Assembly: GCA_030698405.1 (NCBI GenBank) | Contig: JAUYMU010000059.1 | Span: 1 to 64,000 of the forward strand | Source of the DNA: Bacteroidota bacterium | GTDB lineage: Bacteria; Bacteroidota; Bacteroidia; Bacteroidales; Prolixibacteraceae | Direction of reading: 5' to 3' | Length of the DNA: 64,000 nt | Part shown: in pieces, positions 34,632-52,191 of the stretch | Numbering within the stretch: the stretch's first letter is position 1 | Layout: every line of letters starts with the position of its first letter | Notes under the pieces: model-generated | Told to the model about the DNA's origin: nothing | Databases searched by the model: none | Seen by the model: only the letters and a program-made list of their open reading frames with translations | Made by a program: the position numbers and the translations under genes

Positions 34632-35477
34632 TTACGCCCAGTTCCCGTCGCAATAGCCGGACTTCATCCAGGGAAGGTTTTCGTGGTTGTAGAATGGAGT
34701 GAGTTGCATGGCCATTTCCTTCATTTTGGAATCTTCCATTGGCCTGAAATTGCGGAGTATTTCAAGATTCGATTTGACCACCTCCAGACTGTCCATTCCA
34801 AGCACAATGCCATCGGGGCCTTTCAGCGACAAGGCATACCGAACCAAATCTTTGGGATCAAGTTCTTTGATGGTTTCCCGCGGACGGATTACTTTCATCA
34901 GCATTACTCCCATGTCGTTGGTTTTTGCTGCGGGTATTGCCTGTTCCTGTCTTTCTTGCGGATTGGTTGCTTTGTTGTAATGGTTCATAGCCATTAGCAT
35001 ACTAAGCATATCCACGTGGTCGGTTTGCAGACGTTTCAGGCTGGCCTCTATTTGTCGCATGGCTTCATCCGGGTCACGGCTGGTTACTTTTGTGGAAATG
35101 AAGATTTCTTTGCGTCGGTTTTTAAGTACTTCGCCCAGTCGTTCTTCACTGGTAAATCCCAGTTTTTTGTTTTCGTAAGCCCAGGCAGTGTCCCAGTAAT
35201 ACAGTCCGTTGTCCAATGCATAATTCAGGAGATCGAATGCTTCTTCAGCACTTTCGATGGTACAAAAACGGCTTCCAAGACCGATGGCAATGCGTGGAAT
35301 GCGCACACCTGTTTTGCCAAGCATTGCTGTTGGCAAACCTTTGGCATCGTATGCCGAACTTGATCCGGACATCCGGAAAATATTGCACGATGGCAACAAT
35401 CCTGTACCAGCTAACAGTAACCCTGTTCCTTTGATGAATTTGCGGCGCGAGAAGTTTGAGTTTTCCATTGTTTTCAT
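34632..35477 (-). CDS. Tat-exported aldo/keto reductase with internal deletion
   Basis: The N-terminus has a twin-arginine signal (SRRKFIK) with a lipobox-like LLPSC, then an aldo/keto reductase barrel. Numbering from the chosen start (MKTMENSNF), the tetrad members Asp96 and Tyr101 in WDTAWAY and Lys130 in STKVTSRD are present. After RLQTDHVDMLSM (ending at residue 160) the sequence jumps to LMAMNHYNK. Family members of this type have about 55 more residues there, including the catalytic His after VDxxQ and the GFTGH strand. The C-terminal half (GVMLMKVIRPRE; DGIVLGMDSLE) is normal. The protein is probably inactive as a reductase unless it was rebuilt. The frame is open, so this is an in-frame deletion or assembly artefact. 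It is the last gene of the second ECF operon. Confidence 0.8.
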   Translation of the reverse strand: MKTMENSNFSRRKFIKGTGLLLAGTGLLPSCNIFRMSGSSSAYDAKGLPTAMLGKTGVRIPRIAIGLGSRFCTIESAEEAFDLLNYALDNGLYYWDTAWAYENKKLGFTSEERLGEVLKNRRKEIFISTKVTSRDPDEAMRQIEASLKRLQTDHVDMLSMLMAMNHYNKATNPQERQEQAIPAAKTNDMGVMLMKVIRPRETIKELDPKDLVRYALSLKGPDGIVLGMDSLEVVKSNLEILRNFRPMEDSKMKEMAMQLTPFYNHENLPWMKSGYCDGNWA

Positions 35478-35525
35478 TTTTATATTTTCAAACAACCTGA
35501 CAAGCTAAATAGTTTTTCAAATACA

Positions 35526-36689
35526 TTAGTTGTAGCCAATCTTCTCAGCTTCAATTTCTACCAGCAGATCCTCGCGGCAGATGTCGGCCTGAACAAAACT
35601 CAGAGGTACTTCTCCAAAATGATTTAGGCAGATAGCTTTTACTGCGGGAATATCGGCTTCATTTTTCACATAAACGCGTACATAGGCATATTGATCGGGA
35701 ACGACGGTGAGTTGCGGGGCGTGTAATTTTAAGTTCTTTTTACCAGAAAGCAACTCAATGTGATCAATCGTAATCCGGGTTTGTTCTTCGACATCATTCA
35801 GCCCTATGGTTTCCTGCCCGGCAATGGAAGCTGTTCCGGAGATAAAAACCCGCGACTGGTTTTCGCTCATCATCAGTTTAGCCCGCTCAAACTGTGGAGG
35901 CTGATTGCTGGTCTGGTGTTTCTTCGGTTCGCCTTTTAAAACGGCTTGTCCGTATTCATAGGAATCCAGTTGTTCAGGATTGCTAAGCGAAATAATCTCC
36001 AGATTATCATCGCCGGCAACCGCCATACATTCGATACTTACTCCATGATGTGCAACACCGATTCCGGTTGCTGCCGGAAAATCAGGATTGGTGCGGTACC
36101 TGGAATAATACTCACTCCTGACTTCGTTAAAGAGCTGGTAATTTTGCCGCTGCTGAAGTCCGCTTGCTGCAAATCCGAAAATTTGTTCCACATAATTCCA
36201 TTGCCTGACGATCTGGTTAAAGCTTAGTCCCAATTGCAGAAAGGCGGCCAGCAGTTGCCTGAAAGCGCTTTCGGCAGATTCAGAAATTGTATTTTCGACT
36301 GCACTGCCTTCAATCCCTGCAAACCAATATTCAGAATAGTCTGAACCGGAGAGTTTGCAGTAGTTGATCAATCCAGCCTGACCATATTCAACCCGAACAA
36401 TGTCAGAGTCGGCAAAACCGGCTTCAATCGTTACCTGATTGGGTTTTTCAGGCGATTCGGACAAAATGCTTACGGGAATTCCGGTTCCGGAGAATGATTG
36501 TTTAATTTGAGCTGAACGCTGAAGAAATTCATGCGTATTTTCAGCAGCAACAAACACGCGTACAATAAATGCTTTTTGGCTGGTATGTCCGGATAAAAAC
36601 TGTTGGAAACTGACAAAACAGCCTGTCCACTTCGCGTCAAAACTTCCTGCACAACCGGGTATAAAAATACGATATTGAGGTTTAAGCAT
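35526..36689 (-). CDS. Chorismatase-like protein of the RidA superfamily (FkbO/Hyg5/XanB2-like)
   Basis: This 387-residue protein has two RidA-like halves. The second half carries YSRYRTNPDFPAATGIG (about 187-203), the pattern I associate with chorismatases, and later the strand RVFISGTASIAGQETIG (about 284-300). Chorismatases split chorismate into pyruvate and a dihydroxycyclohexadiene or hydroxybenzoate acid. XanB2 makes 3-hydroxybenzoate for an aryl polyene-type pigment. No signal peptide is visible, so it is cytoplasmic, unlike nearly all its operon neighbours. It is 19 bases after the propeller lipoprotein gene. A plain RidA-type enamine deaminase is less likely given the length. Function in this operon is unknown. 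Confidence 0.65.
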   Translation of the reverse strand: MLKPQYRIFIPGCAGSFDAKWTGCFVSFQQFLSGHTSQKAFIVRVFVAAENTHEFLQRSAQIKQSFSGTGIPVSILSESPEKPNQVTIEAGFADSDIVRVEYGQAGLINYCKLSGSDYSEYWFAGIEGSAVENTISESAESAFRQLLAAFLQLGLSFNQIVRQWNYVEQIFGFAASGLQQRQNYQLFNEVRSEYYSRYRTNPDFPAATGIGVAHHGVSIECMAVAGDDNLEIISLSNPEQLDSYEYGQAVLKGEPKKHQTSNQPPQFERAKLMMSENQSRVFISGTASIAGQETIGLNDVEEQTRITIDHIELLSGKKNLKLHAPQLTVVPDQYAYVRVYVKNEADIPAVKAICLNHFGEVPLSFVQADICREDLLVEIEAEKIGYN

Positions 36690-36708
36690 AATTCCTTTTT
36701 AGGTTAAC

Positions 36709-38175
36709 TTATTGCAATTTCAGGTTTTCTACCTGCTTGCCTTTGTTTTCCAAAACGATTTTTTCGATGTCGTTCGGATCGATTTCCACTTTCCCGGTTA
36801 TAAATTCAGGAATGTTGAACGATTGCATCATGTTCAGGTAAAAATCAGGATTTTCCTGCGGCAACAGAAAGGGTTTGCGGGCGATTCCGTTTTCACCGAT
36901 GTAAGCCAGGTAGGGACGGGTATAAAGGCCGTCGATGCGGCGGCTGCTAAATACAAACCAGCGCGAGTTGGTTGCCCACGAATGATAACTTTCTGTATCA
37001 TCGCTGTTTACTTCAACTATCGGGCGGCTGTTTCCGGTTTGAACATCAAACAAATACAAATCGGCTTCCTTGTGCCAGATGGAAAAATTCCCGTAATCAA
37101 TCAGGGTAAATAGGATGAAACGCCCGTCAGGAGAAGGACGTGGAAAAGTGACACTTTTATTCAGCGCTGTGGCATGAAACAAGGTATCGATCCGGTCGCC
37201 GAAAGTCCCATCTTCAGGATTAAAAGAAATGCTGCAAAGATTGTATCTGACCTGATTGTATTCTTCCGGCATTTTTCGGGAAGCGGAACTGCAAAAGTAG
37301 AGGGTTTTTCCGTCCGGAGAAAACGACGGGAATGTTTCGAACATACTGTTCTGCATCAACAACTCATTGCTGATTGCCCGGTTGTTTTTAATATCATAAA
37401 CAACCACATCGGAAGCGCCATCCACCACTTCAACCCTTTTTTCTTTGGTTGCATGAAATCCCTGGTTTGTATTGTTGACCGAATAGGCGATGTAGTTTCC
37501 CGATGGATGCCAGTAGGGATAAACAAAGTTTGAAATTGTTTTTTCGGTTTTGGTATTCAGCAGGCTTATCTTTCCGTCGGTCATTAAAACAGTTCCGCCC
37601 AGTTTGCCCCTGATGTGAAGGCTCATTTCCTTCGGGTCGGACTGACGAAATGAATGACAATTTACACAGCTTCCCGGAATGAGCGTGTTTTCTACAATCG
37701 GCGACTGGTCGAAATTCGAAAGGTTTCGCTGATAAATACCCATTTTGCTGTACACTTCGTAGCCCGGAGCAATCAGGCGGTAAACCAAACCGTAATCAGC
37801 AGGAGTTTCACTCACATGCACTGAAAAAGGGGCAAACTGTATCCATTTGCCTTGCTGCTCAATCGAAACTGTTATCCGAAGGCTGTCACCTTTCGAATTG
37901 GTGAGCATTTGCGTCCATTTACCGGCTGGAATTGAAATGAATTTTTTATCCTGAACGTGGATCACTTCCTTGTTTCGTCCTTCAATGACGGCATCAATGG
38001 CTGAATATTCGTCGTTTACCCTAAAATTAAGCGGAGCAATGTTCTCCGGAATGGTCACTTCGGTATAATCAGGAAAAATATCGGGTTTTTCATTCCGTAT
38101 TTCTGAAGGCACTGGCTTTTGGTTGCAAGCCGTGAGTGTCGCGAAGAGGAATAGTATGATGAAGATTCTATTCAT
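36709..38175 (-). CDS. TolB-like beta-propeller lipoprotein with a CxxCH haem site, copy 1
   Basis: This 488-residue lipoprotein (TLTAC lipobox, Cys17) has an N-terminal beta-sandwich of about 150 residues, a single CVNCH c-type haem motif (C170, C173, H174), and then a TolB/PD40-type propeller with repeats such as WHPSGNYIAYS, FSPDGKTLYFC, PSPDGRFILFT and WATNSRWFVFSS. It follows the DUF6057-type gene by 6 bases and is paralogous to the product of 40288-41733. It should sit in the periplasm or outer membrane as a monohaem protein. The haem could bind an electron donor or a small ligand, and the propeller could bind a peptide or glycan. No function has been assigned that I know of. Confidence 0.8.
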   Translation of the reverse strand: MNRIFIILFLFATLTACNQKPVPSEIRNEKPDIFPDYTEVTIPENIAPLNFRVNDEYSAIDAVIEGRNKEVIHVQDKKFISIPAGKWTQMLTNSKGDSLRITVSIEQQGKWIQFAPFSVHVSETPADYGLVYRLIAPGYEVYSKMGIYQRNLSNFDQSPIVENTLIPGSCVNCHSFRQSDPKEMSLHIRGKLGGTVLMTDGKISLLNTKTEKTISNFVYPYWHPSGNYIAYSVNNTNQGFHATKEKRVEVVDGASDVVVYDIKNNRAISNELLMQNSMFETFPSFSPDGKTLYFCSSASRKMPEEYNQVRYNLCSISFNPEDGTFGDRIDTLFHATALNKSVTFPRPSPDGRFILFTLIDYGNFSIWHKEADLYLFDVQTGNSRPIVEVNSDDTESYHSWATNSRWFVFSSRRIDGLYTRPYLAYIGENGIARKPFLLPQENPDFYLNMMQSFNIPEFITGKVEIDPNDIEKIVLENKGKQVENLKLQ

Positions 38176-38181
38176 TGTCTT

Positions 38182-39945
38182 TTAATTATTTCTGAATTGA
38201 TGATAGTACCAGTAAGAATCAGAGAACTCAGCGCGCAGGTTGCTTTCCGGATTCGACTGTCGTGAAATGTTTTGGTATGCCTGAAAGCGCTGTTTGATCG
38301 CAGGATTTACCGGATAGGGAATGTCCTGCGTCGGATCGTTATTGGACATGCCCCAAATATAGATCAGGGTTTCCTGATAACTGACAGGAATGGACTTGTA
38401 ATTTAGCGATTCGCCCAGCGGGAAATATTGCCAGAAATGCTTCAGATCTTTCGATAGCAAGGTGTAAGCCATCAGATATTCATAAGCCATCCGGTTTGTT
38501 TTGTTTTGCATGAATAAAATTCCAAGCATCATGTCTTTCTCTGCTTCGCTGAACAGAAAATCTTCCTTTGTGCGGCATTGACGCAACCAACCCCATTCCG
38601 AATGCTGTTCGATGAGTTTTTCGTCTTTCATCGTTTGAAGTGCTTGTTTTGCCCAGCCCCGGTAGTAAAAAGTTTGTTGCAGCAGGTGTAAATATTTCCC
38701 GGCAACAGCGTAATTGCCATTGATCAGATTGGTTTCTGCCAAACGCTTTACCGAGCGTACACTTTTCTGGTAGTCAGGCAAAGCCTCCATGGCTTCAAAA
38801 GCATAACGCTGTGCGGTATTTACAAATCCCAGATGATAATACACCTCTCCGGCAATGGTTGGTATAGTATAATCGCGGGTAAAATCGGGGAGCAGGCCGC
38901 CAACCCCATTCTGGTAATAATGAAACATCCGGTCGGCAAGCAATTCCTGTTTTGCAAGTGCCAGATTTAAACAGGTTACCGAAAGCGGTCCTGAAGGTGA
39001 TTTTTGGTCGGCAAGCTTGATTACCCGATCCCATTTTCGCATCCGCACATTAAAATCGTAAGCCATCACTTCTTCCTTTTCCATATCGGACGACCGGCTA
39101 ATAAATACGGATCCTCCAACAATCAGCACAAATAGTTGAATACTGAGAATGAATGTGGTTTTTTTTGGCTGAAACTTGTCAGACAGAAAACGAATCAGAA
39201 AGGGAATGTAAACAATCAGGATTCCGATTACACCGGCAGCTATCGGAATATTTACAGGGAATCGGTAATAGTTGGCTCCGATCCAAACCTGTTGCATCGG
39301 ATATTGAAGGAAATAGGTTTTGCTGAGAATTGGAAAAGCAACGGAAAGCAGGATACAGGCAAAAGCCAGCAAAACCAGATACAGATTTTTTATTTTTCGT
39401 GCGGTTATTTCTCTTGAAATTGCAAACAACGGAAGCAGTAAAAAAGCACCCCCGGCAAGCCAATACAGCACCGGAATTGAAATCAGAAAAAATGAAATCC
39501 GAAGCGGAATGGAATCGAAGAGGGTATAGGCACGAATCCAGAAAGCCACGAGCAGCATGGCTGCAACACCCCCAAAAAGGTAATTCTCGTCGCAGAGCAT
39601 TCCCCAATAGAGCAATGATGGAATAAACGTGAGCGGCACGAACAAAGGATTCGCTCCCATCCGGCGCGAAACCGACCAAACAGCCCGCTGCAGCAGTGTC
39701 AGCATGGACACGATGACAATTGCCCCCACCCAGGAATAAAAGAAAAACTGGGTGAAGAAATTCCCCATGTAATCGCTAAAACCACCCGGCTTTTCCATCA
39801 ACTGAAAGAAGTAATCAGCAGTGAACAGGAACATTTGATACTGCTCCTGATAGTTCAGATGAAAGGGGTAGACAAAAGCAAAAAAGAGAAACACGATTAC
39901 CCCAAATGTCAGTGAAAGCAGCTTATCGATCGAAAATATCTTCAT
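38182..39945 (-). CDS. DUF6057-type polytopic membrane protein, copy 1
   Basis: This protein of about 587 residues has roughly ten hydrophobic helices in the first 330 residues, followed by a soluble helical C-terminal domain with TPR-like spacing (LALAKQELLADRMFHYYQNG; YHLGFVNTAQRYAFEAMEAL; LAETNLINGNYAVAGKYLHLL). The first loop YPFHLNYQEQYQMFLFTADYFF, the KPGGFSDYMGNFFTQFF stretch and the next copy's YPYHLFFKEQIQLFLFSSDYF are strongly alike. The start at 39945 (MKIFSIDKLL) is preferred, since the longer reading from 40077 runs through an intergenic palindrome. Many helices plus a soluble C-terminal domain recall GT-C glycosyltransferases, but I see no firm catalytic motif. Confidence 0.75.
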   Translation of the reverse strand: MKIFSIDKLLSLTFGVIVFLFFAFVYPFHLNYQEQYQMFLFTADYFFQLMEKPGGFSDYMGNFFTQFFFYSWVGAIVIVSMLTLLQRAVWSVSRRMGANPLFVPLTFIPSLLYWGMLCDENYLFGGVAAMLLVAFWIRAYTLFDSIPLRISFFLISIPVLYWLAGGAFLLLPLFAISREITARKIKNLYLVLLAFACILLSVAFPILSKTYFLQYPMQQVWIGANYYRFPVNIPIAAGVIGILIVYIPFLIRFLSDKFQPKKTTFILSIQLFVLIVGGSVFISRSSDMEKEEVMAYDFNVRMRKWDRVIKLADQKSPSGPLSVTCLNLALAKQELLADRMFHYYQNGVGGLLPDFTRDYTIPTIAGEVYYHLGFVNTAQRYAFEAMEALPDYQKSVRSVKRLAETNLINGNYAVAGKYLHLLQQTFYYRGWAKQALQTMKDEKLIEQHSEWGWLRQCRTKEDFLFSEAEKDMMLGILFMQNKTNRMAYEYLMAYTLLSKDLKHFWQYFPLGESLNYKSIPVSYQETLIYIWGMSNNDPTQDIPYPVNPAIKQRFQAYQNISRQSNPESNLRAEFSDSYWYYHQFRNN

Positions 39946-40013
39946 TAAAAAAAAGGTTATCACTTTGTTGTAAATTTCAATAAAAATTGAGTTCACTCCG
40001 AAAAGTCGATTAG

Positions 40014-40209
40014 TTATCCCGAAGGGATAAAATTTGAATAACCACCGGTGAAACCGGTGGAAAGGAAATGAAATCAAAATCGCAACCCTGAAAGGGTTGA
40101 ACTTTTAGTGTGTTAATATTCAACCCTTTCGGGGTTGCGTGTTCGTCTTTCATTCTTCCGTCCCGAGAGTAAATCGGGGCGGTTATTCAAATTCAGTCCT
40201 TTCAGGACT
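40014..40209. repeat. Composite palindromic intergenic element (REP/BIME-like), copy 2
   Basis: A string of hairpins fills most of the 342-base gap 39946-40287: TTATCCCGAAGGGATAA (40014-40030), CCACCGGT/ACCGGTGG (40042-40060), a 21-base inverted pair with one mismatch (40081-40101 with 40119-40139), and AGTCCT/AGGACT (40195-40209). It shares TTTGAATAACC beside a GGTG-AAACC hairpin, and GGTTATTCAAATT, with the element at 14975-15163. I see no gene in the gap. The element splits the duplicated gene pairs of the operon and may attenuate transcription between them. Confidence 0.8.
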
Positions 40210-40287
40210 ATCTTAGGACTTTCTGACTTCTCGTATTGGACTCAAAATTTAGATATTTTATTGATTGAAAATTAAATGATTATTTAT

Positions 40288-41733
40288 CTACTTCACCCGT
40301 TCAGCCTCCTGATCCCAAAACACCCGTTCAATATCCGCGGCATCAAATGGTGTCGGGCCATCAGACAATTCAGGAATATTAAACGATTTAAGCAGGTTGT
40401 CGTATTTCGATGGATCTCGCTGCGGCAAAACAAACGGCTTGTGCGCTTTCCCCGTTGAATCAATGTAACAGAAATAGGGTTTGCCGTAGATTCCATCGTC
40501 GCGTTTACTGGCAAAAACAAACCAACGGCTGTTTGACGACCAACTGTGATAAGAATCGGAATTTGGTCCGTTAACGATTTTCAAACTGTCAATTTCGCCA
40601 GTTTCGAGGTTCATCATCTGCAAATCGGCTTCGCGGTGCCAGATCGGAAATGTGCCATAATCAGCCACGGTATAAAGCAGAAACCTGCCATCGGGCGAAG
40701 TTTTCAGATGACAAACCGATCCATTCATCTTTTTTGCATCCCAAAGCGTATCTGCCTTTAAGCCAATTGTGCCATTTTCTGCATTAAAACTTACCCGGCA
40801 AATGCTGTATTTCAGTGATTTGATGCTGTCGGGCAAAGGCACGGCAGGTGCCACGCAGTAATAAATCCATTTTCCATCGGCAGAAAAAACCGGAAAAGAT
40901 TCGAAAGCGGTGGAATCTGAAAGGAATGGTTGCGTGCTTGTTACATTGGTGTCGAAGTCCAGAACGACTAAATCAGAAGCGGTATCATACACTTCCAGGC
41001 GTTCGCTTTTGAGGGCATGAAGTTCAGGAATGATGATGTTCGTGGAGAAAACGGCATACCGTCCACCCGGGTGGAAATTGCCATAAACAGCATTCAAAAT
41101 CATGCCGTTTCCTTTTGTGTTTATCTTTCTCAGTTTGCCATCTTTGTTCAAAATGGTTCCACCATTCTTTCCCCTGAGATGAAACATGGAAAGCGAAGCA
41201 TTTTGGTTGCCATAAATGTGACAGTTCATACAAGTTCCATCGGTTAAATTATTGTCGGCAATCACCCGCTCATCAAACGATTCAATATTCCGCTCTACAA
41301 TCTGTACTTTGTTCCAGACTTCATATCCCGGTTCAATCAGGCGGTAGCTGAGGTAAGGACTTATCGAATCGCTTTTTACATGCCATTTAAATGGGTTATA
41401 CTGAATCCATTTTCCGTTTTTTCGGGCAGTCACCCGGATGCTCAGGCTTTTTCCTGATTCCAAAGCAAGAAGTGTTTTCCATTTTTTTACCGGAATCGAA
41501 ATTTTTCCATTTCCCCTGACAATTATTGAACTGTTGCTGCCTTCAATGGAGACGATCATCTTGTCGGTCGAATCGCGCATCATAAAATTCAGGGGCGCCA
41601 CATTCACCGGAATAGACACGTCGATGTAATCGGGATAAATGGCCGGAAGTTCATGACTTATCCTGACGTCAGCCGGACCGCTGCACGCCATCAGAACTAA
41701 AACTGATATTATGAAAAAGATTATATTTCTCAT
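40288..41733 (-). CDS. TolB-like beta-propeller lipoprotein with a CxxCH haem site, copy 2
   Basis: This 481-residue paralogue of the 36709-38175 product has a lipoprotein signal ending VLMACSG (Cys17), the same N-terminal sandwich (IYPDYIDVSIPVNVAPLNF), the haem motif CMNCH (C168, C171, H172) and the propeller repeats FHPGGRYAVFS, FSADGKWIYYC, TSPDGRFLLYT and WSSNSRWFVFAS. The start at 41733 overlaps the DUF6057-type stop by four bases (ATGA), showing tight coupling. The longer frame upstream is an artefact of reading through that gene. Conservation of CxxCH and of the propeller in both copies argues that both matter. Confidence 0.82.
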   Translation of the reverse strand: MRNIIFFIISVLVLMACSGPADVRISHELPAIYPDYIDVSIPVNVAPLNFMMRDSTDKMIVSIEGSNSSIIVRGNGKISIPVKKWKTLLALESGKSLSIRVTARKNGKWIQYNPFKWHVKSDSISPYLSYRLIEPGYEVWNKVQIVERNIESFDERVIADNNLTDGTCMNCHIYGNQNASLSMFHLRGKNGGTILNKDGKLRKINTKGNGMILNAVYGNFHPGGRYAVFSTNIIIPELHALKSERLEVYDTASDLVVLDFDTNVTSTQPFLSDSTAFESFPVFSADGKWIYYCVAPAVPLPDSIKSLKYSICRVSFNAENGTIGLKADTLWDAKKMNGSVCHLKTSPDGRFLLYTVADYGTFPIWHREADLQMMNLETGEIDSLKIVNGPNSDSYHSWSSNSRWFVFASKRDDGIYGKPYFCYIDSTGKAHKPFVLPQRDPSKYDNLLKSFNIPELSDGPTPFDAADIERVFWDQEAERVK

Positions 41734-43466
41734 TTCTTTTGAATGGTTGCAAAATGATAATAGAACCAGTACGATTGACCAAACCGTTCTTTCAGGGCGT
41801 TCATGTCCCCCTTTGTTTGTTCGTAGAGTTTGGTATAGGCAATAAAGTCCTTCATCTTTTGGGGATTGATGGAATAGCCAGCAGCTTCTTCTCCGGAAGC
41901 CTTTGAAGCGAACAATTGAATTAGCAAAGTTTCGCCATAAACTTTGGGAACTGGCCGGTCGATCTGTCGTGCATATTGATCGTACGCTATTTTGAAAGAT
42001 TTCAAATCCTTGTCCAGCAGGTAATGACAAAGCAAATAATCGAGTGCGATTGTGTTCCCGGGATTTTGCTGAACCAGAAAACGGAGCGAAGCCAGCTGGT
42101 CGTTCGATTTTCGCAAGGTGTCGGTATGCGGAATCTGCTCCCGCTTTTCGGAAAGCCATTTGTTCGGGACAGCAGCATGATTCATGAGCTGCCGGCTTTT
42201 TGCCCATTTTTTATGAAACAGGGTTTTGCTTAGAATTTGCAAATATTTGTCGGCAGCAGCGGTGTCTCCGTTAATCAGGTTAATTTCTGCCAGACGTTTG
42301 ATCATTCGTGAACTTCGATGATAGGGCGAAAATGTATTTCCAAGCATAGCAGAATGTTGGGCAAGGTTCATGTCGCCCATCAGGAAAAAAACTTCATTGC
42401 TCACAAAGATCGACTGCCAGCTTTCATCAGGCATTACCGGCAATATCAAACCATGAACAGACGGCTGATAGAATTCGAGCAGATGTTCGGGCAACACGCC
42501 GTTTTTTGCCAGCGCCATGTTGGTGAAGTAGGTGGCCTGCCTGTCCTTCAGCTTGTATTTTTGGGAAAGTTCAATCACGCGATCGGTGTTACCGAAATAA
42601 GTTTCACTGTCCAGCGACAGGATTTTTTCGAACCTGAAATTGGCATTTACCGACAGTCCGCCAATCAGCAATCCGATGAAAACAGGGGGAACAGCAATGT
42701 TGAACAATTTCGAATGAGTGAGTTCAATCCTTTTCAGGGAAAAAACACCGGCCAGCATAAAAACAAAAGCAGCGGGCAAAAGTAAACTTTGTACCTGAAT
42801 TGCCGGGTAAATGTAGGCTTGCAATGTGGTGAGCAGGTAATGGTGCCTGAATGCCAGCGGTATTGCAACTGCAAGGGCAATAGCAACAATCCATTTCAGT
42901 AAACTAAATCGTCCTTGTTTAAAGTCCCGGGCAACGATCAAAACCGGAAGAATCAGTATGGTCATTCCGGCCAGCCAGTATCCGGTAAAAATTACAATCG
43001 GGACTGAAACGATGGAAAGCCGGCGGTTCGAAATGAAGGTATAAATCAGGAACAGCAGGAGGACCAAAATAAAACCGACAGAAACGGATACGCTGTGTAA
43101 GATTTCCAGATGAAGAATCCAGTCGGCAATAACGGGAAGCAATGCCCAAACAGATGCTTTGGTGGTGGAAGAAATACGTTTGATGACGATTGAACTGATC
43201 AGCCATTCAAGCAGAAACAGGAAGGAAAGTACGGTAGCCCCACCTCCGCGGAGATAAAAAAACTGGGTCAGGAAATCGCCTGTATAGCCAGCCAGCCATG
43301 CGGGTTTGCTGAAATAGGAAATAAAATAATCAGAAGAAAATAGGAACAGCTGTATCTGCTCTTTGAAGAACAAATGGTAAGGATAGAAGAACTGAAAAAA
43401 CAGGAAACTTATACCAACAAGGCTTGCCGGTAATATCCAATCGATTTTCTTTTCGTATTCCGCCAT
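41730..43466 (-). CDS. DUF6057-type polytopic membrane protein, copy 2
   Basis: This 578-residue paralogue of 38182-39945 has about ten membrane helices in the first 300 residues and a soluble helical C-terminal half (EVFFLMGDMNLAQHSAMLGN; LAEINLINGDTAAADKYLQIL). The loop after helix 1 reads YPYHLFFKEQIQLFLFSSDY and the next KPAWLAGYTGDFLTQFFYL, matching the other copy closely. Its stop overlaps the start of the paired propeller lipoprotein. Invariant first-loop residues next to the membrane surface suggest a periplasmic active or binding site. Biochemical function is unknown to me. Confidence 0.75.
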   Translation of the reverse strand: MAEYEKKIDWILPASLVGISFLFFQFFYPYHLFFKEQIQLFLFSSDYFISYFSKPAWLAGYTGDFLTQFFYLRGGGATVLSFLFLLEWLISSIVIKRISSTTKASVWALLPVIADWILHLEILHSVSVSVGFILVLLLFLIYTFISNRRLSIVSVPIVIFTGYWLAGMTILILPVLIVARDFKQGRFSLLKWIVAIALAVAIPLAFRHHYLLTTLQAYIYPAIQVQSLLLPAAFVFMLAGVFSLKRIELTHSKLFNIAVPPVFIGLLIGGLSVNANFRFEKILSLDSETYFGNTDRVIELSQKYKLKDRQATYFTNMALAKNGVLPEHLLEFYQPSVHGLILPVMPDESWQSIFVSNEVFFLMGDMNLAQHSAMLGNTFSPYHRSSRMIKRLAEINLINGDTAAADKYLQILSKTLFHKKWAKSRQLMNHAAVPNKWLSEKREQIPHTDTLRKSNDQLASLRFLVQQNPGNTIALDYLLCHYLLDKDLKSFKIAYDQYARQIDRPVPKVYGETLLIQLFASKASGEEAAGYSINPQKMKDFIAYTKLYEQTKGDMNALKERFGQSYWFYYHFATIQKK

Positions 43467-44170: not shown

Positions 44171-45004
44171 TTATTTTGCCTTGAACATCCAAAACCAGGC
44201 AGTTCCCCATGAACCGGCACCGGGTTCAGGAAATGCAAGAACCATCTTGTTGGCGTCCAATTTCAGAATATCATATTCATAAACTGTTGCGCCTCCGCCG
44301 TTTGGCTGTATTCCGCAAAGAACACCAATGTTCTTGGTTTTTAACTTACCTTTTGCCCAAACTGCGCCACCGTCGTCCATAGTTTTTGCTGACATGTCAA
44401 AAGAGAAAGAACCTTTTGCTGAAGTAGCATCGCTCTTAATCTTTGTAAGCGAAGAGCCGCTAACAGCGAACACCATTTCAGCTCCGGCGCCTTCTCCGGC
44501 AGCCTGACCATTGATGTCAGCCAAAGCAACCTTCCACCATCCCGGAGAAACATTGCCTTTGTAGCCACCGTTGCCCCATACAGCATTGGCTTGGGTATCA
44601 TCCCAAACCCAGCTTTTTTCGCCGGTACCGCAAAGTAGTCCCCATTCTTCAGGAACATTGATCAAAGTATCGATCTGCACGGTTAAGGTTTTTGTAATGG
44701 TAGTTCCATCGTGATTCAATCCGGTGAACACAATATCATTGGCACCCTTTAGTACCAGCATAACTGTTGTCTTTGTACTTGTTGTTGTGCCGTTTCCGTA
44801 ATTCCAGGAGCTCAGACAACCAACGCCGTCACTGTTCAGTTCAATACTATTCGATTTCTTTCCTTTGACCATTACCGGAGTAGCTGAGATTTGCAAATCA
44901 TCGGCAGTTATTGCGCCTGACAAAACATCTCTGTTCTCTATCGGATCGCAGGCAACCAGCATCATAGTGGCAGCCAGCATTGTATATAATATAGCTTTTT
45001 TCAT
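44171..45004 (-). CDS. SusE/F-position surface lipoprotein
   Basis: This protein of about 277 residues has a lipoprotein signal (MLVACDP). Ig/PKD-like strands follow (SATPVMVKGKKSNSIEL; GANDIVFTGLNHDGTTITKTLTVQID), then a C-terminal beta-sandwich rich in Trp and Gly (GEKSWVWDDTQANAVWGNGGY; PGAGSWGTAWFWMF). Proteins in this position after SusD are usually surface glycan-binding lipoproteins. The start at 45004 (MKKAILYTML) gives the clean signal peptide. The closest role is SusE/SusF-like binding for the substrate of the second system. The ligand is unknown. Confidence 0.75.
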   Translation of the reverse strand: MKKAILYTMLAATMMLVACDPIENRDVLSGAITADDLQISATPVMVKGKKSNSIELNSDGVGCLSSWNYGNGTTTSTKTTVMLVLKGANDIVFTGLNHDGTTITKTLTVQIDTLINVPEEWGLLCGTGEKSWVWDDTQANAVWGNGGYKGNVSPGWWKVALADINGQAAGEGAGAEMVFAVSGSSLTKIKSDATSAKGSFSFDMSAKTMDDGGAVWAKGKLKTKNIGVLCGIQPNGGGATVYEYDILKLDANKMVLAFPEPGAGSWGTAWFWMFKAK

Positions 45005-45040
45005 TTTTCTTATCTTGAAATTTATCATTAAATATCAAAC

Positions 45041-46798
45041 TTACTCGTTCCAGCTAACAAATAACGCGGATGCATCCCAACCGACATTTTGTTTCAATAC
45101 ACCGTTTGAAAGATCTATTTCAGACTGAGGAATTGGCATAAAACCTTTTGTTGCATCATACCTGGCAGCGTAACCTGCACCCTGGTTTTTCATCGTAGTA
45201 GCAACACCGCGATTCCAGATATCTGAACCGAGCTGATTTGAGAGCGCTTCCTTTGCAATCCCCCAGCGACGGATATCGCTCCAGCGTGTTCCTTCAAAAG
45301 CAAGTTCCCAGCGACGTTCGTTACGAAGCGCGCTTACCGAATAGCCAACTTCAGGCAGTCCTGCGCGGACACGAACTTTGTTCATACTTTCAGCAGTTCC
45401 CTTAAGTTCTGAGTGCATCAGAAGAACGTCGGCAAAACGGATGATATTCAAATCCACTTCATGACCCAACTGAAAGTCATCAGCAGCGCCATCGCCATAA
45501 TATTCTGTTGAAGAGGTAAAACTATTGAACAGCGCATTTAATGAACCATCTGGTTTATAAGATTTCACACCGGTTGTGGCAACAATTTTCTTTTGGTAAA
45601 AACCAGATTCTTCCATTAATTTATCGGCGCCATAAACATAGTCAGCCGTTTTTGTACCATCAAGAATTGAAGCTTCACGGCGTGGATCATTGGGTTCGGC
45701 AGCTTTCCATTCATTCCAAAGTTTTGGACTCACAGGACCTGCTCCCCAACCTTGTCCGAAAGGATACATATTTTTAAACTGATCGGCGCCACCATGGCTG
45801 CGTATTCCGAAGTGCAGCATATACTGGTTTGAATATCCGATGGTTGTTCCCCAACTTGCCAAATGCGAAAATTTAATTGCAAATACCTGTTCAGGATTGT
45901 TGCCATCTTTTACCCATGCCGGAGCATCTTTGGCGTAAGGATAATCTTTCTTTGAAAGTGTATTCGTGTATGGCCACAAACTACGGAAGTCAGTTATCAA
46001 ACTGTTTCCGCTGTTTGCGATACAATCCTCCAGGGCAGTTATTACTTCAGCCTTTGAAATTGATCCTGTGATCTTACCATCAGCTCCCATTAATGGAAGT
46101 GCATCTTTTTGATAGAACCCTGTGTAGAAAAGAAAAACCCGGGCAAGAAGAGCTTCAGCAGCCCATTTTGTAACGTGTCCGCTACCTGAAACAGTTTCAT
46201 TCCATTTTTTGTCAGGCATAATACTGATGGCTTCTTTCAAACCAGCGGCAATAAAACCATACACTTCCTCCGGCGAAGCTTGTGCCGGATATACCTGCGC
46301 CTCGCTAACAGTGGCCGGAACACTGGTAATCAAAGGAACATTGCCAAACATTTCTACCAATTCATTGTAGAAGTATGAGCGAAGGAAAAGTGTCTCACCC
46401 TTTAACTGATTTCTCAGTTGCTCGTTTTCCACTTTGTCAAGGTTGGCAACAGCCATATTGGCACGGCTAATTCCTGCGTAACGATCGGACCAGAAGGATT
46501 TGAAGCGGTCCATGTTGGTGTACAACAAGTGGTCGAGAACCTGCATGTCCTTGTCATTTTCACCACCACCGCCAAAACGATCGTCTGAAGCCAATTCGGC
46601 TGCATAAAAATAAGTGTTGGCGACATTGGCTACCGGCTTGTTTAAGGTGGCATAAACACCCGTTACCATTTGAATGGCATCATCCGCCGTCTTTGGATAA
46701 TTCCCGGTATTCTTCTTGGTATAGCTCTCTGTGTCGAGATAGCTTTCGCAACTCGTAAACAAAAGGGCAGTTGCTGCAAAATAGATTATCTTTTTCAT
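45041..46798 (-). CDS. SusD/RagB-family lipoprotein of the second system
   Basis: This protein of about 585 residues has the lipobox LFTSC. SusD features include TADDAIQMVTGVYATLN, LKGETLFLRSYFYNELVEMFGNVPLI, LLMHSELKGTAESMNKVRVRAGLP and LRNERRWELAFEGTRWSDIRRWG. The start at 46798 is chosen for the signal peptide MKKIIYFAATALLFTSC. The longer frame begins inside susC. It partners the SusC encoded 13 bases upstream. No polysaccharide-degrading enzyme is encoded in this operon, so the ligand may not be a plant glycan. Confidence 0.94.
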   Translation of the reverse strand: MKKIIYFAATALLFTSCESYLDTESYTKKNTGNYPKTADDAIQMVTGVYATLNKPVANVANTYFYAAELASDDRFGGGGENDKDMQVLDHLLYTNMDRFKSFWSDRYAGISRANMAVANLDKVENEQLRNQLKGETLFLRSYFYNELVEMFGNVPLITSVPATVSEAQVYPAQASPEEVYGFIAAGLKEAISIMPDKKWNETVSGSGHVTKWAAEALLARVFLFYTGFYQKDALPLMGADGKITGSISKAEVITALEDCIANSGNSLITDFRSLWPYTNTLSKKDYPYAKDAPAWVKDGNNPEQVFAIKFSHLASWGTTIGYSNQYMLHFGIRSHGGADQFKNMYPFGQGWGAGPVSPKLWNEWKAAEPNDPRREASILDGTKTADYVYGADKLMEESGFYQKKIVATTGVKSYKPDGSLNALFNSFTSSTEYYGDGAADDFQLGHEVDLNIIRFADVLLMHSELKGTAESMNKVRVRAGLPEVGYSVSALRNERRWELAFEGTRWSDIRRWGIAKEALSNQLGSDIWNRGVATTMKNQGAGYAARYDATKGFMPIPQSEIDLSNGVLKQNVGWDASALFVSWNE

Positions 46799-46811
46799 AT
46801 TTAGACTCTCA

Positions 46812-49800
46812 TTAAAATTTAAGATTAACACCAACCATATAAGTTCTTGGACTTGGGTAATAACCTAAGTCAATACCTGATACCCAACTTTTATCGTAAC
46901 CATATCCAATTTCAGGATCCATTCCTGAATAACTGGTAAATGTGTATAGGTTCTGGGCTGTTACAAAAATACGTGCCTGTCCAAACGGAATATTGCTGAA
47001 ATGCTTTTTGAAGTCGTAACCCAATGTAAGGTTCTGAATTTTCAGATAATCGCCATCTTCAATGTAGATATCAGAAATATTCTGCCAGTTGGTATGGCTG
47101 CCTGAAGTCAGACGTGGCAATTTATTGGAAGTACCTTCACCGGTCCAGCGACCAAAAATTTCAGTCGTGTAGTTTTGTAGCGGTGAATCGGCAAATGAAC
47201 GGTATGATTTGGCAATCTGTTGTCCGAATGCTCCAGTTCCCGTGATATTTAAATCAAAACCCTTGTATTCGAAATTCAGATTTAATCCCAGGGTAAAGTC
47301 AGGATGCGGATTGCCAATCATTGTACGGTCGTCTTCTGTAATCGTACCGCTGGCGTCAGTATCCACAAAGATAAGGTCACCAGGTTGTGCGCCAGCATAT
47401 CTGGCAGGAGTGTTGTTTACCTGTTCCCAGTTCTGGAATACTCCGGCTGTTTTGTAGCCATAAAAATATCCGATAGGAAACCCTTCCTGTGCACGGTACA
47501 TTTCTGTTGTACCCTGACTTAATACGTTTCCATCGCCGTGAATAATGCCTTCCGCATTTGCAATACGTGTTACTTTGTTTACATTGTGGGCTAAATTTAC
47601 CGAGGCGCCATATTTCAGTTCACCTGCTTTGTCATTCCAGTTCAATGCAATTTCAAAACCTTTGTTTTCGATATCGCCACCGTTCACATAAGGAGCATTC
47701 AATCCCCAAACCGCTGGAATCGGAGCCAATACAAGCCAATCTTTCGTGGTTTTCTTGTACCAGTCGAAAGTCAGGCCTAATCGTGAATTCAGAAAACGGG
47801 CATCAAAACCAAGGTTCAACTGTTCAGAAGTTTCCCATTTTACATCCGGATTGGCTAAAATATCAGCATATCCACCCACTGTTTGTGTTAACTTGTCAGG
47901 GGCAAAATAGTAGCCATTGCTGGTATCAAATGCGATGGTAGAAAGATACTGGAAGTTATCAATGGCAGCATTGCCATTCTGACCCCAGCTGGCACGAAGT
48001 TTCATGAAATCCATCCACTTTTCAGTCGATTCCATAAACGATTCGTTGGTGATTACCCAACCGGCAGACATTGACGGGAAATAACCCCAACGGTTTCCGG
48101 GTGCGAAGTTCGATGAACCATCGGCACGCATGGTGAAAGAAGCCATATAAGTTTCTTTGTAGTTGTAGTTGGCACGTCCGAAGAATGAAGCCAGAGAACC
48201 CGATCCCCAGGGAGAACCGCCAGCTCCACGCTGTGCAAGTACTGTTGGTTTAGTATTGTCAACCCATGCATTGTCAAACAAGCCCGGAAACATAGAATTG
48301 TTTCCACTTGCATTGACGTTTGAACCCATTCCCCATTTTTCAACCGATTGACCAACCAAAACATCGAACTGATGATCGTCGGCAACCATGAATTTATAGG
48401 CAAGTGTGTTATCCAATGTTATATTATGTCCTGAACTTGCATTTTGATAGACATTGTCCATCGTTACATTTGTGTTGTTTGACAAGTGACGGATTCCATC
48501 ATATGAACGGTAAGAGGATGCGGTCATCTTGTAACCAAACTGAGATCTGAAAACCAAATTCTGAATTGGTTGGATTTCAGTATAAGCACTTGTCTGAAGC
48601 GCATAGTTTTGGGAAAGGTTCAATCCCCAGTTTGAAAGAGCAGTTCCTGCAAGCGGATTGCCTGTATTGCCATCAAAGTTCCAGCCATTATCTCGCTTGT
48701 CATCAAAGTCATAGAAGTTGCCATCAGCATCGTAGGCAGGGAGCAACGGATTTCCAACCAACAGGTTGTGGATCGAATTGCCATAGATGTTGCCAATTGC
48801 AATACCTGATTTGGTGCTTGAATTATAATTCAGCGTCTGACCAATTTTGATTACATCAAAGTCTTTTGCTTTGAGCAATACATGATCTGAATTGATACGG
48901 GCAGTATAACGTTCATATTCAGACTGAACTGGTTTTCCAAGAATACCGTCCTGTGAAGTATATGAAAATCCCAAAGCAAATTTCGACTGATCGTTTCCAC
49001 CTGACAGGTTAAACGAATGATTTTGTGTTGGAGCAGCTTCGTTGTATGCCTCTTTCATCCAGTTTGTTCCCTGCCATGAACCATCCATAACCGAGTTATA
49101 GAGGGCTTCAGGAAGAAGGTTTGCCCAGTCGTAAGTAGGATTCGCTTCATTGAAACGGGTTTCATCCATCATCGACATGTATTCTTTGGCATTCAGTAAA
49201 GCAGGCATTTTGGCTGCATATTGAGCGCCATAGTAACCATCATAAGTAAGCTGAAGTTTTCCGGCTTTACCTTTTTTTGTTGTTACCAAAACTACACCAT
49301 TGGCAGCACGTGCACCGTAAATTGCTGCCGAAGCTGCATCCTTCAATACGTCGATGGATTCAATGTCTGATGTATTCAATGCATTGATATCTCCACCAGC
49401 CACACCATCTATAACATATAGCGGAGATGATGAACCAATGGTACCCAAACCACGGATGGTCACTTTAAAGCCTTCACCCGGCTGACCTGAGCTCTGTGTG
49501 ATCTGAACTCCGGGAGTCTGGCTCTGCAAAGCGCCCAAGGCACTTACCGAACTCATTTTCTGAAGGTCGTCGCCGCCCACCTGAATCGTAGCGCCAGTGG
49601 TTAGTTTCTTTTTCTGAACACCGTAACCAATTGCTACAACTTCATCAATATCAAATGATTCTACGTCCATTACAACATTGACAGTTGTTTGATTACCCAC
49701 TTGTACTTCCTGTAATTTCATTCCAATGAACGAAAATTGCAGAGTTGCATTTTCAGGAACATTCGAAACGGAATAGTTCCCATTGCCATCAGTAATGTTT

Positions 49801-50282
49801 CCGTTGGTGGTACCTTTTACTACAACCGAAACACCCGGAACCGTTGCTCCTGAAGCATCGGTTACTTTACCTGTAACCGTTTTGCTTTGTTGCTGCTGTG
49901 TTGAATTTTGCTTCAAATCCGCTCGGGAAAGCAATATATGCCGGTCGTTGATTGAATACTTCACTCCGGCTCCTTCAAAAAGAATTGGAAGTGTCTGTTC
50001 AATACTCTTGCCTTTTATCGCAATACTCACCTTGCGGTTAATATCGATGTATTCGGCACTGTAAGCGAAACGGAATTCGCTTTGTTTCTCAATAGCTTCC
50101 ATAACATCTACCACACGGGCGTCCTGGAAGTTCAGGCTGAGTTTGGTTGACTGGCTGTAAAGGCTGGCCGAAACCTGCATCAGACCCACAAAAAGAAAAA
50201 GGAACGTAAGTCGCATAATTCTAAAGAATTTTTTGTTCCAGTTCCGGGGCATCAAACCTCGGATACTCGATTTTTTTTTCAT
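46812..50282 (-). CDS. SusC/RagA-family TonB-dependent transporter with STN domain, second system
   Basis: This 1156-residue outer-membrane transporter has a signal anchor and an STN domain (about 45-120; LSLNFQDARVVDVMEAIEK). The carboxypeptidase-regulatory-like domain reads VTGKVTDASGATVPGVSVV; the TonB-box-like DEVVAIGYGVQKK, the plug (VIDGVAGGD; DAASAAIYGARAANGVVLVTT) and a barrel ending TYMVGVNLKF follow. It differs strongly from the xylan SusC in the barrel. The STN domain and the upstream fecR/sigma genes show transport-coupled induction. Its substrate is not evident from neighbours. Confidence 0.95.
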   Translation of the reverse strand: MKKKSSIRGLMPRNWNKKFFRIMRLTFLFLFVGLMQVSASLYSQSTKLSLNFQDARVVDVMEAIEKQSEFRFAYSAEYIDINRKVSIAIKGKSIEQTLPILFEGAGVKYSINDRHILLSRADLKQNSTQQQQSKTVTGKVTDASGATVPGVSVVVKGTTNGNITDGNGNYSVSNVPENATLQFSFIGMKLQEVQVGNQTTVNVVMDVESFDIDEVVAIGYGVQKKKLTTGATIQVGGDDLQKMSSVSALGALQSQTPGVQITQSSGQPGEGFKVTIRGLGTIGSSSPLYVIDGVAGGDINALNTSDIESIDVLKDAASAAIYGARAANGVVLVTTKKGKAGKLQLTYDGYYGAQYAAKMPALLNAKEYMSMMDETRFNEANPTYDWANLLPEALYNSVMDGSWQGTNWMKEAYNEAAPTQNHSFNLSGGNDQSKFALGFSYTSQDGILGKPVQSEYERYTARINSDHVLLKAKDFDVIKIGQTLNYNSSTKSGIAIGNIYGNSIHNLLVGNPLLPAYDADGNFYDFDDKRDNGWNFDGNTGNPLAGTALSNWGLNLSQNYALQTSAYTEIQPIQNLVFRSQFGYKMTASSYRSYDGIRHLSNNTNVTMDNVYQNASSGHNITLDNTLAYKFMVADDHQFDVLVGQSVEKWGMGSNVNASGNNSMFPGLFDNAWVDNTKPTVLAQRGAGGSPWGSGSLASFFGRANYNYKETYMASFTMRADGSSNFAPGNRWGYFPSMSAGWVITNESFMESTEKWMDFMKLRASWGQNGNAAIDNFQYLSTIAFDTSNGYYFAPDKLTQTVGGYADILANPDVKWETSEQLNLGFDARFLNSRLGLTFDWYKKTTKDWLVLAPIPAVWGLNAPYVNGGDIENKGFEIALNWNDKAGELKYGASVNLAHNVNKVTRIANAEGIIHGDGNVLSQGTTEMYRAQEGFPIGYFYGYKTAGVFQNWEQVNNTPARYAGAQPGDLIFVDTDASGTITEDDRTMIGNPHPDFTLGLNLNFEYKGFDLNITGTGAFGQQIAKSYRSFADSPLQNYTTEIFGRWTGEGTSNKLPRLTSGSHTNWQNISDIYIEDGDYLKIQNLTLGYDFKKHFSNIPFGQARIFVTAQNLYTFTSYSGMDPEIGYGYDKSWVSGIDLGYYPSPRTYMVGVNLKF

Positions 50283-50337
50283 AGTTTTGAATGAATTTGT
50301 TATTAAAAAGTTTCATCATTAATTTGATGGGCATTTG

Positions 50338-50370: not shown

Positions 50371-50374
50371 ATTT

Positions 50375-51370
50375 TTAGTTCAATGGTTTCTTGTGGTATT
50401 TTAATTCAATCACATTGTCGTGTTGAATGGCATCAACGGGAGTGATTTTTTCAATCAGGCTCAGTATGCTGCTTAAATTTTCGTTCTTGATGGTGAAGGT
50501 AAATGGAAGATTTTTTATTTGATCATCGACCACGAATTTTTGGTTGTACCGCTTTTCAAGCTTAATGACCAACTCGCTCAAAGGTAAATTATAAATGTTT
50601 ATCAATCCGTCTTTCCACGATGTATAAAGTACAGTATTAACATTTGAAAGGGTAAGTTCTCTTTTGTCTTTATTGAAATTGGCCAATTCGCCAGGCTTCA
50701 TTTCTTGCCTGAAATTCGAATTGGAAGTTGATGTTAATTCTACTTTTCCTTTCTCCAGTACAACCTGAATGAAGTTTTCTTCGGAATAAGCCATCACGCT
50801 GAATTCGGTGCCCAACACTTTCACCTGTAAATCCGAACTGCTCACAATCATTGGCAACTCAGCATTTTCATAAGCTTTAAAAAATGCTTCACCATTCAAT
50901 TCGATCTCACGATTTGTGGCCGAAAATTGGTTGTTGTAACGGATGGCCGATCCTGAATTGATCCAGACAACCGAACTGTCGGGCAATACCACTTTCGAAA
51001 TCTGGCCGAAATCGGCAGCTACCGTTGTGTAAACCAGTTGTTGATCTGTAGGTTTTGATTGGGTGAAGAAGTAAAGCAGCGATGGCACTGAAATTAACAG
51101 AACAAAAATGGCAGCATACCTGAAAAAACTGAGTGTTCTCCGGGTACGGTGTAAATCTGATTGCATCCGACCGAACAGAATATTCTGAACATTGTTCCAA
51201 TCCGCTTGAAATTCTGCGGGTATTTTTTTATCCCGGATTTCGCTTTTCCATTCGCTTTTAATTGCCTGGAATTCATTTAAGTTATGATCCTCCCGGATCC
51301 AATACAGCAATTCTTTTTGTTCCTTTTCAGAACTTTCCCCCGAAAGGTATTTCTTGATTTTTAATTTCAT
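50375..51370 (-). CDS. FecR-family anti-sigma factor, second system
   Basis: This 331-residue protein has an N-terminal sigma-binding region and a membrane helix near 83-105 (FRYAAIFVLLISVPSLLYFF). The FecR domain reads LPDSSVVWINSGSAIRYNNQF and REIELNGEAFFKAYENAELP, and the C-terminal part ends FVVDDQIKNLPFTFTIKNENL. It should transmit the SusC signal to the sigma factor encoded 227 bases upstream. That gap (51371-51597) holds only low-complexity TTTCAAGT and GGATATTG-type repeats and possibly a separate promoter. Confidence 0.94.
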   Translation of the reverse strand: MKLKIKKYLSGESSEKEQKELLYWIREDHNLNEFQAIKSEWKSEIRDKKIPAEFQADWNNVQNILFGRMQSDLHRTRRTLSFFRYAAIFVLLISVPSLLYFFTQSKPTDQQLVYTTVAADFGQISKVVLPDSSVVWINSGSAIRYNNQFSATNREIELNGEAFFKAYENAELPMIVSSSDLQVKVLGTEFSVMAYSEENFIQVVLEKGKVELTSTSNSNFRQEMKPGELANFNKDKRELTLSNVNTVLYTSWKDGLINIYNLPLSELVIKLEKRYNQKFVVDDQIKNLPFTFTIKNENLSSILSLIEKITPVDAIQHDNVIELKYHKKPLN

Positions 51371-51597
51371 TCATTGAGTTGTTTCATGAGGAGTACACGG
51401 AAATAATAAAAACCCTACCCTGAAACCTGAAAAAGTTTCAAGTTTCAAGTTCAAAGTTTCAAGTCTGTCTTTGGATATTGGGTATTGGAAGTTGGATATT
51501 GATTATTTGTTTTTTAGTTGCTTCATGACCTTCGAAGTCACGTTTACTTTCCTGTTTCTTGTTTCTTATTTGATATTCCTTATTTTTTATTTTGAAT

Positions 51598-52191
51598 TTA
51601 TTTCAGCAGCATTGTAATCATAACTGCCATAAGCGGGAATTTAAGCAGCATTTCCTTACGGATTTGTTCTTTGGCCTGATGAAGGTGTTTCTCAACCGCT
51701 TTTACTGAAATGCCCAACTCGTCGGCTACGTCCTTGTTTTTTTTGCCTTCAAGTTTTGATTTGGTGAATACAATTTTCCGTTTTTCAGGCAATTTATCGA
51801 CCGATTCGCGGATCGCCACAATTAGCTGTTCTTCAAGGATTGATTCTTCTTTGCCGATAAAGTCGAGTTGAAAAAGGTGCTGGAGTTCATTTTCACCAAC
51901 CGAATCAATTTCCGTTTCGGGTTTGTGTAGTTTTTTATCACGAAGGTAATTCAGGCATCTGTTCCGGAGCATCACAAACAACAAACTTTCAACCGATTGT
52001 GTGGTTTTGATGGAGGATCGTTTTTCCCATAACTTTATGAAACACTCCTGAACCAGATCGTTTGCCTGTTCCTGTTCATGAATGAAAAGCCTGCAATAAC
52101 CCAGCATACGCGGAAAAGTTTGTTTGAACAACTCCTCGTAGGCCGCAGGATTTCCCTCTTTTAACTTTATATTTAGTTGAAAATTTTCCAC
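51598..52191 (-). CDS. ECF RNA polymerase sigma factor, second system
   Basis: This 197-residue sigma factor has region 2 (LFKQTFPRMLGYCRLFI; LVQECFIKLWEKRSSI) and region 4 (LPEKRKIVFTKSKLEGKKNKDVADELGISVKAVEKHL). A hydrophobic tail LMAVMITMLL is present, as in the other sigma factor of the window. It heads the second operon and is divergent from the sugar dehydrogenase gene at 52350. It presumably directs transcription of the second susC and the downstream cargo. Confidence 0.95.
   Translation of the reverse strand: MENFQLNIKLKEGNPAAYEELFKQTFPRMLGYCRLFIHEQEQANDLVQECFIKLWEKRSSIKTTQSVESLLFVMLRNRCLNYLRDKKLHKPETEIDSVGENELQHLFQLDFIGKEESILEEQLIVAIRESVDKLPEKRKIVFTKSKLEGKKNKDVADELGISVKAVEKHLHQAKEQIRKEMLLKFPLMAVMITMLLK

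Follow-up and report, generated by a model that had tools for sequence, protein, structure and literature searches.

A DUF6057 membrane protein and a CxxCH propeller lipoprotein usually travel together in fibre-degrading gut and sediment bacteria, pointing to an undescribed two-part system

Why should an operon for glycan uptake carry, twice over, a polytopic membrane protein followed by a propeller lipoprotein with a single CxxCH motif? The question is posed by a stretch of 64,000 nucleotides, hereafter the window, from a Bacteroidota bacterium of the family Prolixibacteraceae (assembly GCA_030698405.1, contig JAUYMU010000059.1, positions 1 to 64,000), in which twelve genes, all on the minus strand, run from position 52191 down to 34632. 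A first inspection of this DNA, here called the original prediction, had guessed that both membrane proteins belong to DUF6057, and had proposed that they and their propellers process or sense a substrate taken up by the SusCD transporter of the same operon. Our analysis points to an undescribed two-part system, which usually travels as a pair in fibre-degrading gut and sediment bacteria and may decorate cell-envelope molecules. The family guess is borne out, since both membrane proteins match PF19529 over nearly the whole model, with 609 and 496 bits against a gathering score of 29.8, and the first-loop signature read from them (YPxHL, EQxQxFLFxxDY, KP, FxTQFF) is found in both. They are the only two DUF6057 proteins encoded in the source genome. 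Because the two copies share only 28% identity in DUF6057 and 43% in the propellers in alignments, the duplication of the cassette is old; relatives such as L028, L029, L030, L031, L034, L036 and L044 have the same succession of DUF6057-2, propeller 2, DUF6057-1 and propeller 1.

Do the two proteins belong together outside the window? Two collections of loci were compared. A contig search found 262 relatives, the best 80 of which gave 77 loci, a set that leans to the window's own type. An even sample comprised 295 genomes of the order, with copy counts that are lower bounds, the best few candidates having been scored per genome; 40 loci were fetched mostly from this sample, some as short stretches. 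In the even sample DUF6057 was found in 36 genomes, the propeller in 38 and both in 34 (Fisher p 1e-37), and a propeller match lay at most 1 kb from 62 of the 70 merged DUF6057 hits. The 77 loci, taken with the window, L003 and L004, hold 155 propeller open reading frames (ORFs) and 155 DUF6057 ORFs, which make up 147 adjacent same-strand pairs with a median gap of -7 bases. An overlap of ORF starts puts the window's second pair with the eight non-adjacent misses, and two short propeller fragments stand outside the 155. One further pair (L110) came from the fetched stretches, and two propellers listed as partnerless in genome G498 turned out to have a DUF6057 partner. Weak DUF6057 matches in other genomes (L005-L025) were rejected and left out of all counts: five of the ORFs scanned there were FtsW/RodA and others MMPL, PMT_2 and baeRF. 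The pairing of membrane protein and propeller read from the window thus looks obligate in the sample as well.

The partners also vary together. Over 117 full-length pairs their distances correlate with r = 0.93. Where a locus has several cassettes, 1219 of 1471 comparisons pick the same cassette by best match of DUF6057 as by best match of the propeller, against a fraction of 0.49 in within-locus shuffles (maximum 0.62). Such shuffling controls for species history, and this agreement is as expected of cognate partners; the relevant unit is the DUF6057-propeller pair, a cognate two-protein module. No paper was found by searches of a literature library on DUF6057 or PF19529, nor by searches combining CxxCH with propeller, TolB and heme, or a mannan polysaccharide utilisation locus (PUL) with cytochrome c and propeller.

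What kind of protein is the lipoprotein partner? Both window propellers have a lipobox and exactly one CxxCH, as had been noticed, and the motif is present in the 155/155 propellers counted above and in 40/40 of a second set. Its Cys and His are invariant; R133 and R189 are kept in 155/155 sequences, H223 in 153/155, H398 in 151/154 and E280 in 151/155. The only full-length propeller that lacks the motif (L147, 6062-7459) is an orphan with no DUF6057 in its stretch, in which H398 has become Ala and H223 is kept. Searches of the PDB by sequence and profile returned generic propellers only. The model, built from 58 sequences (predicted local distance difference test score, pLDDT, 93.3), has a TolB fold: TolB chains fill ranks 1-12 with Z 25.3-26.9, the best being 26.9. 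Compared with TolB, the propeller of the Tol-Pal system, the window protein has a lipobox, a conserved CxNCH in blade 1 and a different partner; TolB is not known to have a CxxCH. The propeller of hydrazine synthase alpha (5c2v_A, Z 23.6), part of a haem-containing complex, is also a fold match, but it differs in length and was absent from the list of the PDB profile search, and its haem sits in another domain.

Acidic residues after the lipobox cysteine are the rule for export to the surface. A lipobox was recognised by pattern in 119 of the 155 propellers, and at least two acidic residues follow it in only 16 of these 119, compared with 23/24 SusD proteins and 20/25 members of the lipoprotein family encoded downstream of SusD, whose representative in the window also has acidic residues after the cysteine. 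This scarcity suggests that the propeller is probably held in the periplasm rather than on the surface. Haem on its CxxCH is plausible from the motif and from the company that it keeps: the cytochrome c assembly family PF01578 occurs in 35/36 DUF6057 genomes and 203/259 others (p 0.006, by a statistic that ignores phylogeny), and the lone DUF6057 genome without it is 61% complete.

And what is DUF6057 itself? The fold work was done on protein no. 1, no. 2 being a member of its alignment. The model (69 sequences, pLDDT 95.7) consists of helices to about residue 290 and then of tetratricopeptide repeats (TPR), and many TPR chains match it at Z 10-12 over about 292-452. With VIA-align, residues 1-298 fall on the Pmt2-type chain 6p25_B (Z 11.3, 278 aligned, root-mean-square deviation 6.1) and residues 1-299 on STT3 6ezn_F (Z 9.9, 272 aligned, deviation 5.6); these chains of the GT-C glycosyltransferase class sit in a list of mostly TPR rows, from which the absence of other membrane folds proves nothing. 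By profile, hhalign aligns DUF6057 with 14 PMT_2 proteins from relatives at a probability of 76.9, columns 7-293 against 1-302, in a register that puts the conserved Glu-Gln on the acidic pair of PMT_2 and KPGG on KPP. FtsW, MFS and SSF controls did not exceed 1.2 and 30 block shuffles stayed at or below 0.8, and the accepted GT-C pair PMT_2/TMEM260 gave 90.7. EQ, Q71 and PGG are near-invariant in the alignment, and the acidic residue of the first loop is Glu in 66/69 aligned sequences and in 119/141 non-gap cases over all ORFs. A Pfam scan of the DUF6057 proteins matched no GT-C family, neither PF13231 nor PF02366, and a PDB sequence search gave nothing convincing. The fold comparison and the PMT_2 alignment support the GT-C guess of the original prediction, short of proof, and we consider the kinship probable; catalysis would be less likely than kinship.

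Among GT-C enzymes, the protein O-mannosyltransferases and ArnT kin (PMT/PMT_2) share with DUF6057 a membrane half alignable over its full length, an acidic loop after the first transmembrane (TM) helix and a KPP-like motif, whereas DUF6057 has PGG in place of PP, Gln after the Glu, and TPR in place of MIR or other C-terminal parts. A likeness of plan, not one of compared sequences, exists with TMTC1-4: these are O-mannosyltransferases of the GT-C/PMT clan with an acidic first-loop motif and a C-terminal TPR on the lumenal side, having 11 TM helices and a strict DD motif where DUF6057 has about 8-9 and EQ (PMC7801869). TMEM260-like proteins (PF11028) of Bacteroidales are GT-C clan members in the same genomes with no significant profile match to DUF6057, and TMEM260 was dropped as nearest GT-C family on its hhalign probabilities, 16.2 for the full protein and 0.4 for the membrane half.

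The account that we favour, tentatively and with a little less than balanced confidence in the whole chain, sees in the pair a GT-C glycosyltransferase facing the periplasm together with its cognate propeller lipoprotein, a module borrowed by several glycan-uptake operons. DUF6057 would be an inner-membrane enzyme whose active loop and C-terminal TPR face the periplasm. Its sugar would come from a polyprenyl-phosphate carrier, and its acceptor would be a protein or glycan of the periplasm or outer membrane. The role of the propeller, its dedicated and probably periplasmic partner, would be either to offer the acceptor or to regulate the transferase by way of a site for a ligand, haem or metal, formed in the propeller channel by the CxxCH and the conserved His. 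The SusCD operon would have captured two ancient copies of the module in the window's lineage, where SusD or the lipoprotein of that operon may serve as acceptor. The analysis shows the pairing, the co-variation, the retention of CxxCH, the TPR and the TolB fold; catalysis, topology, acceptor and haem are what we infer for the module. General O-glycosylation in Bacteroidota starts with mannose or another hexose (PMC10897501); the module, in only 36/295 genomes, would instead be an accessory system. A more specific version seems improbable: sugar transfer to periplasmic or surface acceptors would be switched or made possible by the state of the propeller's CxxCH site, so that the exchangeable module of glycan-uptake operons would be a ligand- or redox-controlled glycosyltransferase, and no GT-C enzyme with an obligatory haem (or metal) propeller as partner would have preceded it.

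Several observations weigh against the glycosyltransferase account. Intact DUF6057 proteins without a nearby propeller occur in L133, L136 and L148, and a DUF6057 fragment in L151, while L145, L146, L147 and L150 have propellers with no DUF6057 in the fetched stretch. Foldseek with the DUF6057 model retrieved TPR proteins only, with no match at E 0.001 or better, and a Z near 11 is within reach of unrelated helical models. When only the membrane half is used, the probability for PMT_2 falls to 47.7; the TMEM260 values given above are low, and reversed decoys reach 12.5 to 22.6, over only about 106 columns. Some members lack the loop Glu. For a periplasmic TPR to agree with the positive-inside count, the long helix 151-187 has to be counted as two passes, and the model shows this helix unbroken. 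In the propeller, H398 is Pro in three related sequences among the 154 that keep CxxCH, and the AlphaFold2 model, made without haem, places the motif in the inner beta-strand 170-176, a position that argues against a canonical haem site.

Might DUF6057 then be a GT-C-shaped, or merely helical, scaffold devoid of transferase activity? Such an inner-membrane anchor would use its TPR to recruit the propeller and partners from the outer membrane, serving assembly or energy coupling much as TolB works with Pal, and the TolB fold of the partner, the TPR domain, the absence of the loop Glu from some sequences and the modest fold and profile scores would all suit it. We nevertheless judge it unlikely, as the PMT_2 alignment is collinear from end to end with acidic and KPP motifs in register, and the near-invariant EQ, Q71 and PGG look catalytic rather than structural. 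More serious, if still somewhat doubtful, is the possibility that the CxxCH is a metal site or a redox disulphide in the propeller channel, acting with H174, H398, H223 and E280. The strand position of the motif and the conservation of H223, H398 and E280 fit this, the L147 orphan has lost CxxCH and H398 together while retaining H223, and copper thiocyanate dehydrogenases appear among the Foldseek matches. The spacing of the motif, the periplasmic export and the co-occurrence with PF01578 fit a c-type haem instead, and the haem proteins cytochrome cd1 and hydrazine synthase are likewise among the fold matches.

Is the glycosyltransferase module tied to SusCD and its substrate, as the original prediction had it? 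In the 77 contig-search loci, SusC or SusD accompanies the pair in 37, the downstream lipoprotein family in 31 and DUF4369 in 31. In the 40 even-sample loci SusC lies anywhere in the fetched stretch in only 15, and SusC or SusD at most two genes away in 13; SusC/D nonetheless make up 27/152 near genes and 4/106 of those at least five genes away (p 7e-4). The linkage is therefore real but optional, enriched and not constant: co-occurrence stands as an enrichment among near genes and fails as a rule, and the claim that the pair serves a SusCD substrate is unsupported as it was put. Held against the two outcomes that the original prediction had named as refuting it, the result is mixed, since the CxxCH is retained and the SusCD link is inconstant. 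That the pair processes or senses an imported substrate, by periplasmic processing of a glycan or glycan-linked aromatic, is rather unlikely. The order SusC, SusD, lipoprotein, DUF4369 and cassette, kept in many close relatives, would fit such a role, as would the presence of SusC/SusD and of mannan-type glycoside hydrolase (GH) genes of GH5, GH26 and GH130, the latter in 23 of the 77 loci, and the frequency of GH26 in DUF6057 genomes (21/36, against 40/259 others). Against it stand the 25 even-sample loci without SusC in stretches some of which are short, and the diversity of the even-sample neighbours, which comprise GH43, GH28, GH88, GH2, GH16 and housekeeping genes (134 of 151 neighbour ORFs scanned, among the 25 commonest families per batch). 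Moreover, the enrichment of GH10 (24/36 against 34/259) equals or exceeds that of GH26, so that at genome level the link is with fibre degraders in general. This control also led us to reject mannan specificity, and a beta-mannan utilisation system is very improbable: GH26, GH130, GH5, mannobiose-type epimerase and GH27 genes do lie beside some loci, but the window's neighbour is a xylan PUL and other loci adjoin GH28, GH43, GH88 and fucose isomerase genes.

The gene order and coordinates of the operon, from the sigma factor through FecR, SusC, SusD, the lipoprotein and the cassettes to the reductase, agree with those first described (Table 1). It has the SusC and SusD of a classic PUL, and Pfam and TIGRFAM profile scans matched no glycoside hydrolase or other carbohydrate-active enzyme among the operon genes scanned, in keeping with the earlier statement that no glycan-cutting enzyme is encoded. 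Two starts were corrected: propeller 2 begins with the ATG at 41733, in a 4-base overlap with the end of the DUF6057 no. 2 gene, and the start of DUF6057 no. 1 is the ATG at 39945.

Table 1. Features of the operon in the window, in order of transcription
Feature	Coordinates	Strand	Basis
Extracytoplasmic function (ECF) sigma factor	51598..52191	-	ORF; similar genes beside other loci by phmmer
FecR-type anti-sigma factor	50375..51370	-	ORF, sequence resemblance
SusC-type TonB-dependent transporter with STN domain region	46812..50282	-	TIGR04056 E 2e-270
SusD-type lipoprotein	45041..46834	-	PF07980 E 2e-26, PF14322 E 2e-24
Lipoprotein downstream of SusD, probable surface glycan-binding protein	44171..45028	-	Pfam: no match
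DUF4369 protein	43486..44079	-	PF14289 E 3e-11
DUF6057 protein no. 2 (GT-C-like membrane half and TPR)	41730..43466	-	PF19529 E 2e-148
Propeller lipoprotein 2, single CMNCH	40288..41733	-	PD40 E 2e-10
Intergenic spacer with inverted repeats	39946..40287	-	Dispersed REP-like element
DUF6057 protein no. 1 (GT-C-like membrane half and TPR)	38182..39945	-	PF19529 E 1e-182
Propeller lipoprotein 1, single CVNCH at residue 170	36709..38175	-	PD40 E 1e-13
Chorismatase-fold (FkbO/Hyg5-like) protein	35526..36689	-	PF21168 E 4e-11
Tat-signal aldo-keto reductase, internally shortened	34632..35495	-	PF00248 E 8e-20 over 85 residues

The palindrome of the spacer between the cassettes is real, and no special role for it emerged: an operon-specific element is rejected by 29 dispersed copies in the genome (at most 2 mismatches, against 0 for a reversed control pattern). 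It is an ordinary repetitive extragenic palindromic (REP)-like repeat, whose copies are often inverted pairs 36 bases apart. The label chorismatase-like held up, the protein matching the solved chorismatases 5ag3/5a3k and FkbO 4bps at E 3e-25 to 2e-22 (5ag3 at 3e-25), and the C-R-x(5)-E motif, with the Cys and Glu of the C-terminal motif, is kept in 26/26 members of its cluster. This motif is common to FkbO/Hyg5/XanB2 enzymes (PMC3949708), from which the window protein differs in scoring 146.7 bits with TIGR04444, under the cut-off of 325; its product is not predictable from sequence. The gene is present in 24/77 contig-search loci, and in the even sample it occupies 7/152 positions at most two genes from the pair and 2/106 far away, which is not significant. 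In two genomes outside the window's class (L103 and L104) a chorismatase-like gene adjoins the pair, which suggests an old association or a transfer. The twin-arginine translocation (Tat)-signal aldo-keto reductase lacks 56 residues of a near-identical L026 homologue through an in-frame loss of 168 bases in the barrel, either real decay or an assembly artefact.

Around the operon, a xylan-type PUL adjoins directly (4242-34570), with GH10, GH43, GH115, GH2, esterases, its own SusC and a sigma/FecR set; the sigma factor on which the Pfam scan was run is this neighbouring one, at 33986-34570. Its GH10 protein (7948-9264) gave profile matches at 28-92 and 153-309 that no intervening DNA separates, so that about 60 domain residues seem to be missing, a second in-frame shortening in the window. 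On the other side, divergent from the sigma gene, a glucose/sorbosone dehydrogenase is fused to a cytochrome c domain with CAGCH (52350-53771); no homologue was found in the other loci compared, and it was rejected as part of the cluster. An AbiEii-type nucleotidyltransferase toxin of a type IV toxin-antitoxin system is encoded at 23396-24247, with a small upstream ORF at 22693-23301.

What would the glycosyltransferase module mean for the family? The earlier interpretation of the locus is partly supported. If the proposal is true, it would give a first mechanism for DUF6057, a large family across Bacteroidales that is also present in two genomes outside their class (G039 and G078). It would unite, for the first time, glycosylation with a haem-type propeller in a single module, and it would provide a bacterial parallel to the animal TMTC enzymes with their plan of TM helices and TPR. 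Cultured species such as Dysgonomonas capnocytophagoides and Bacteroides luti would offer a ready genetic system.

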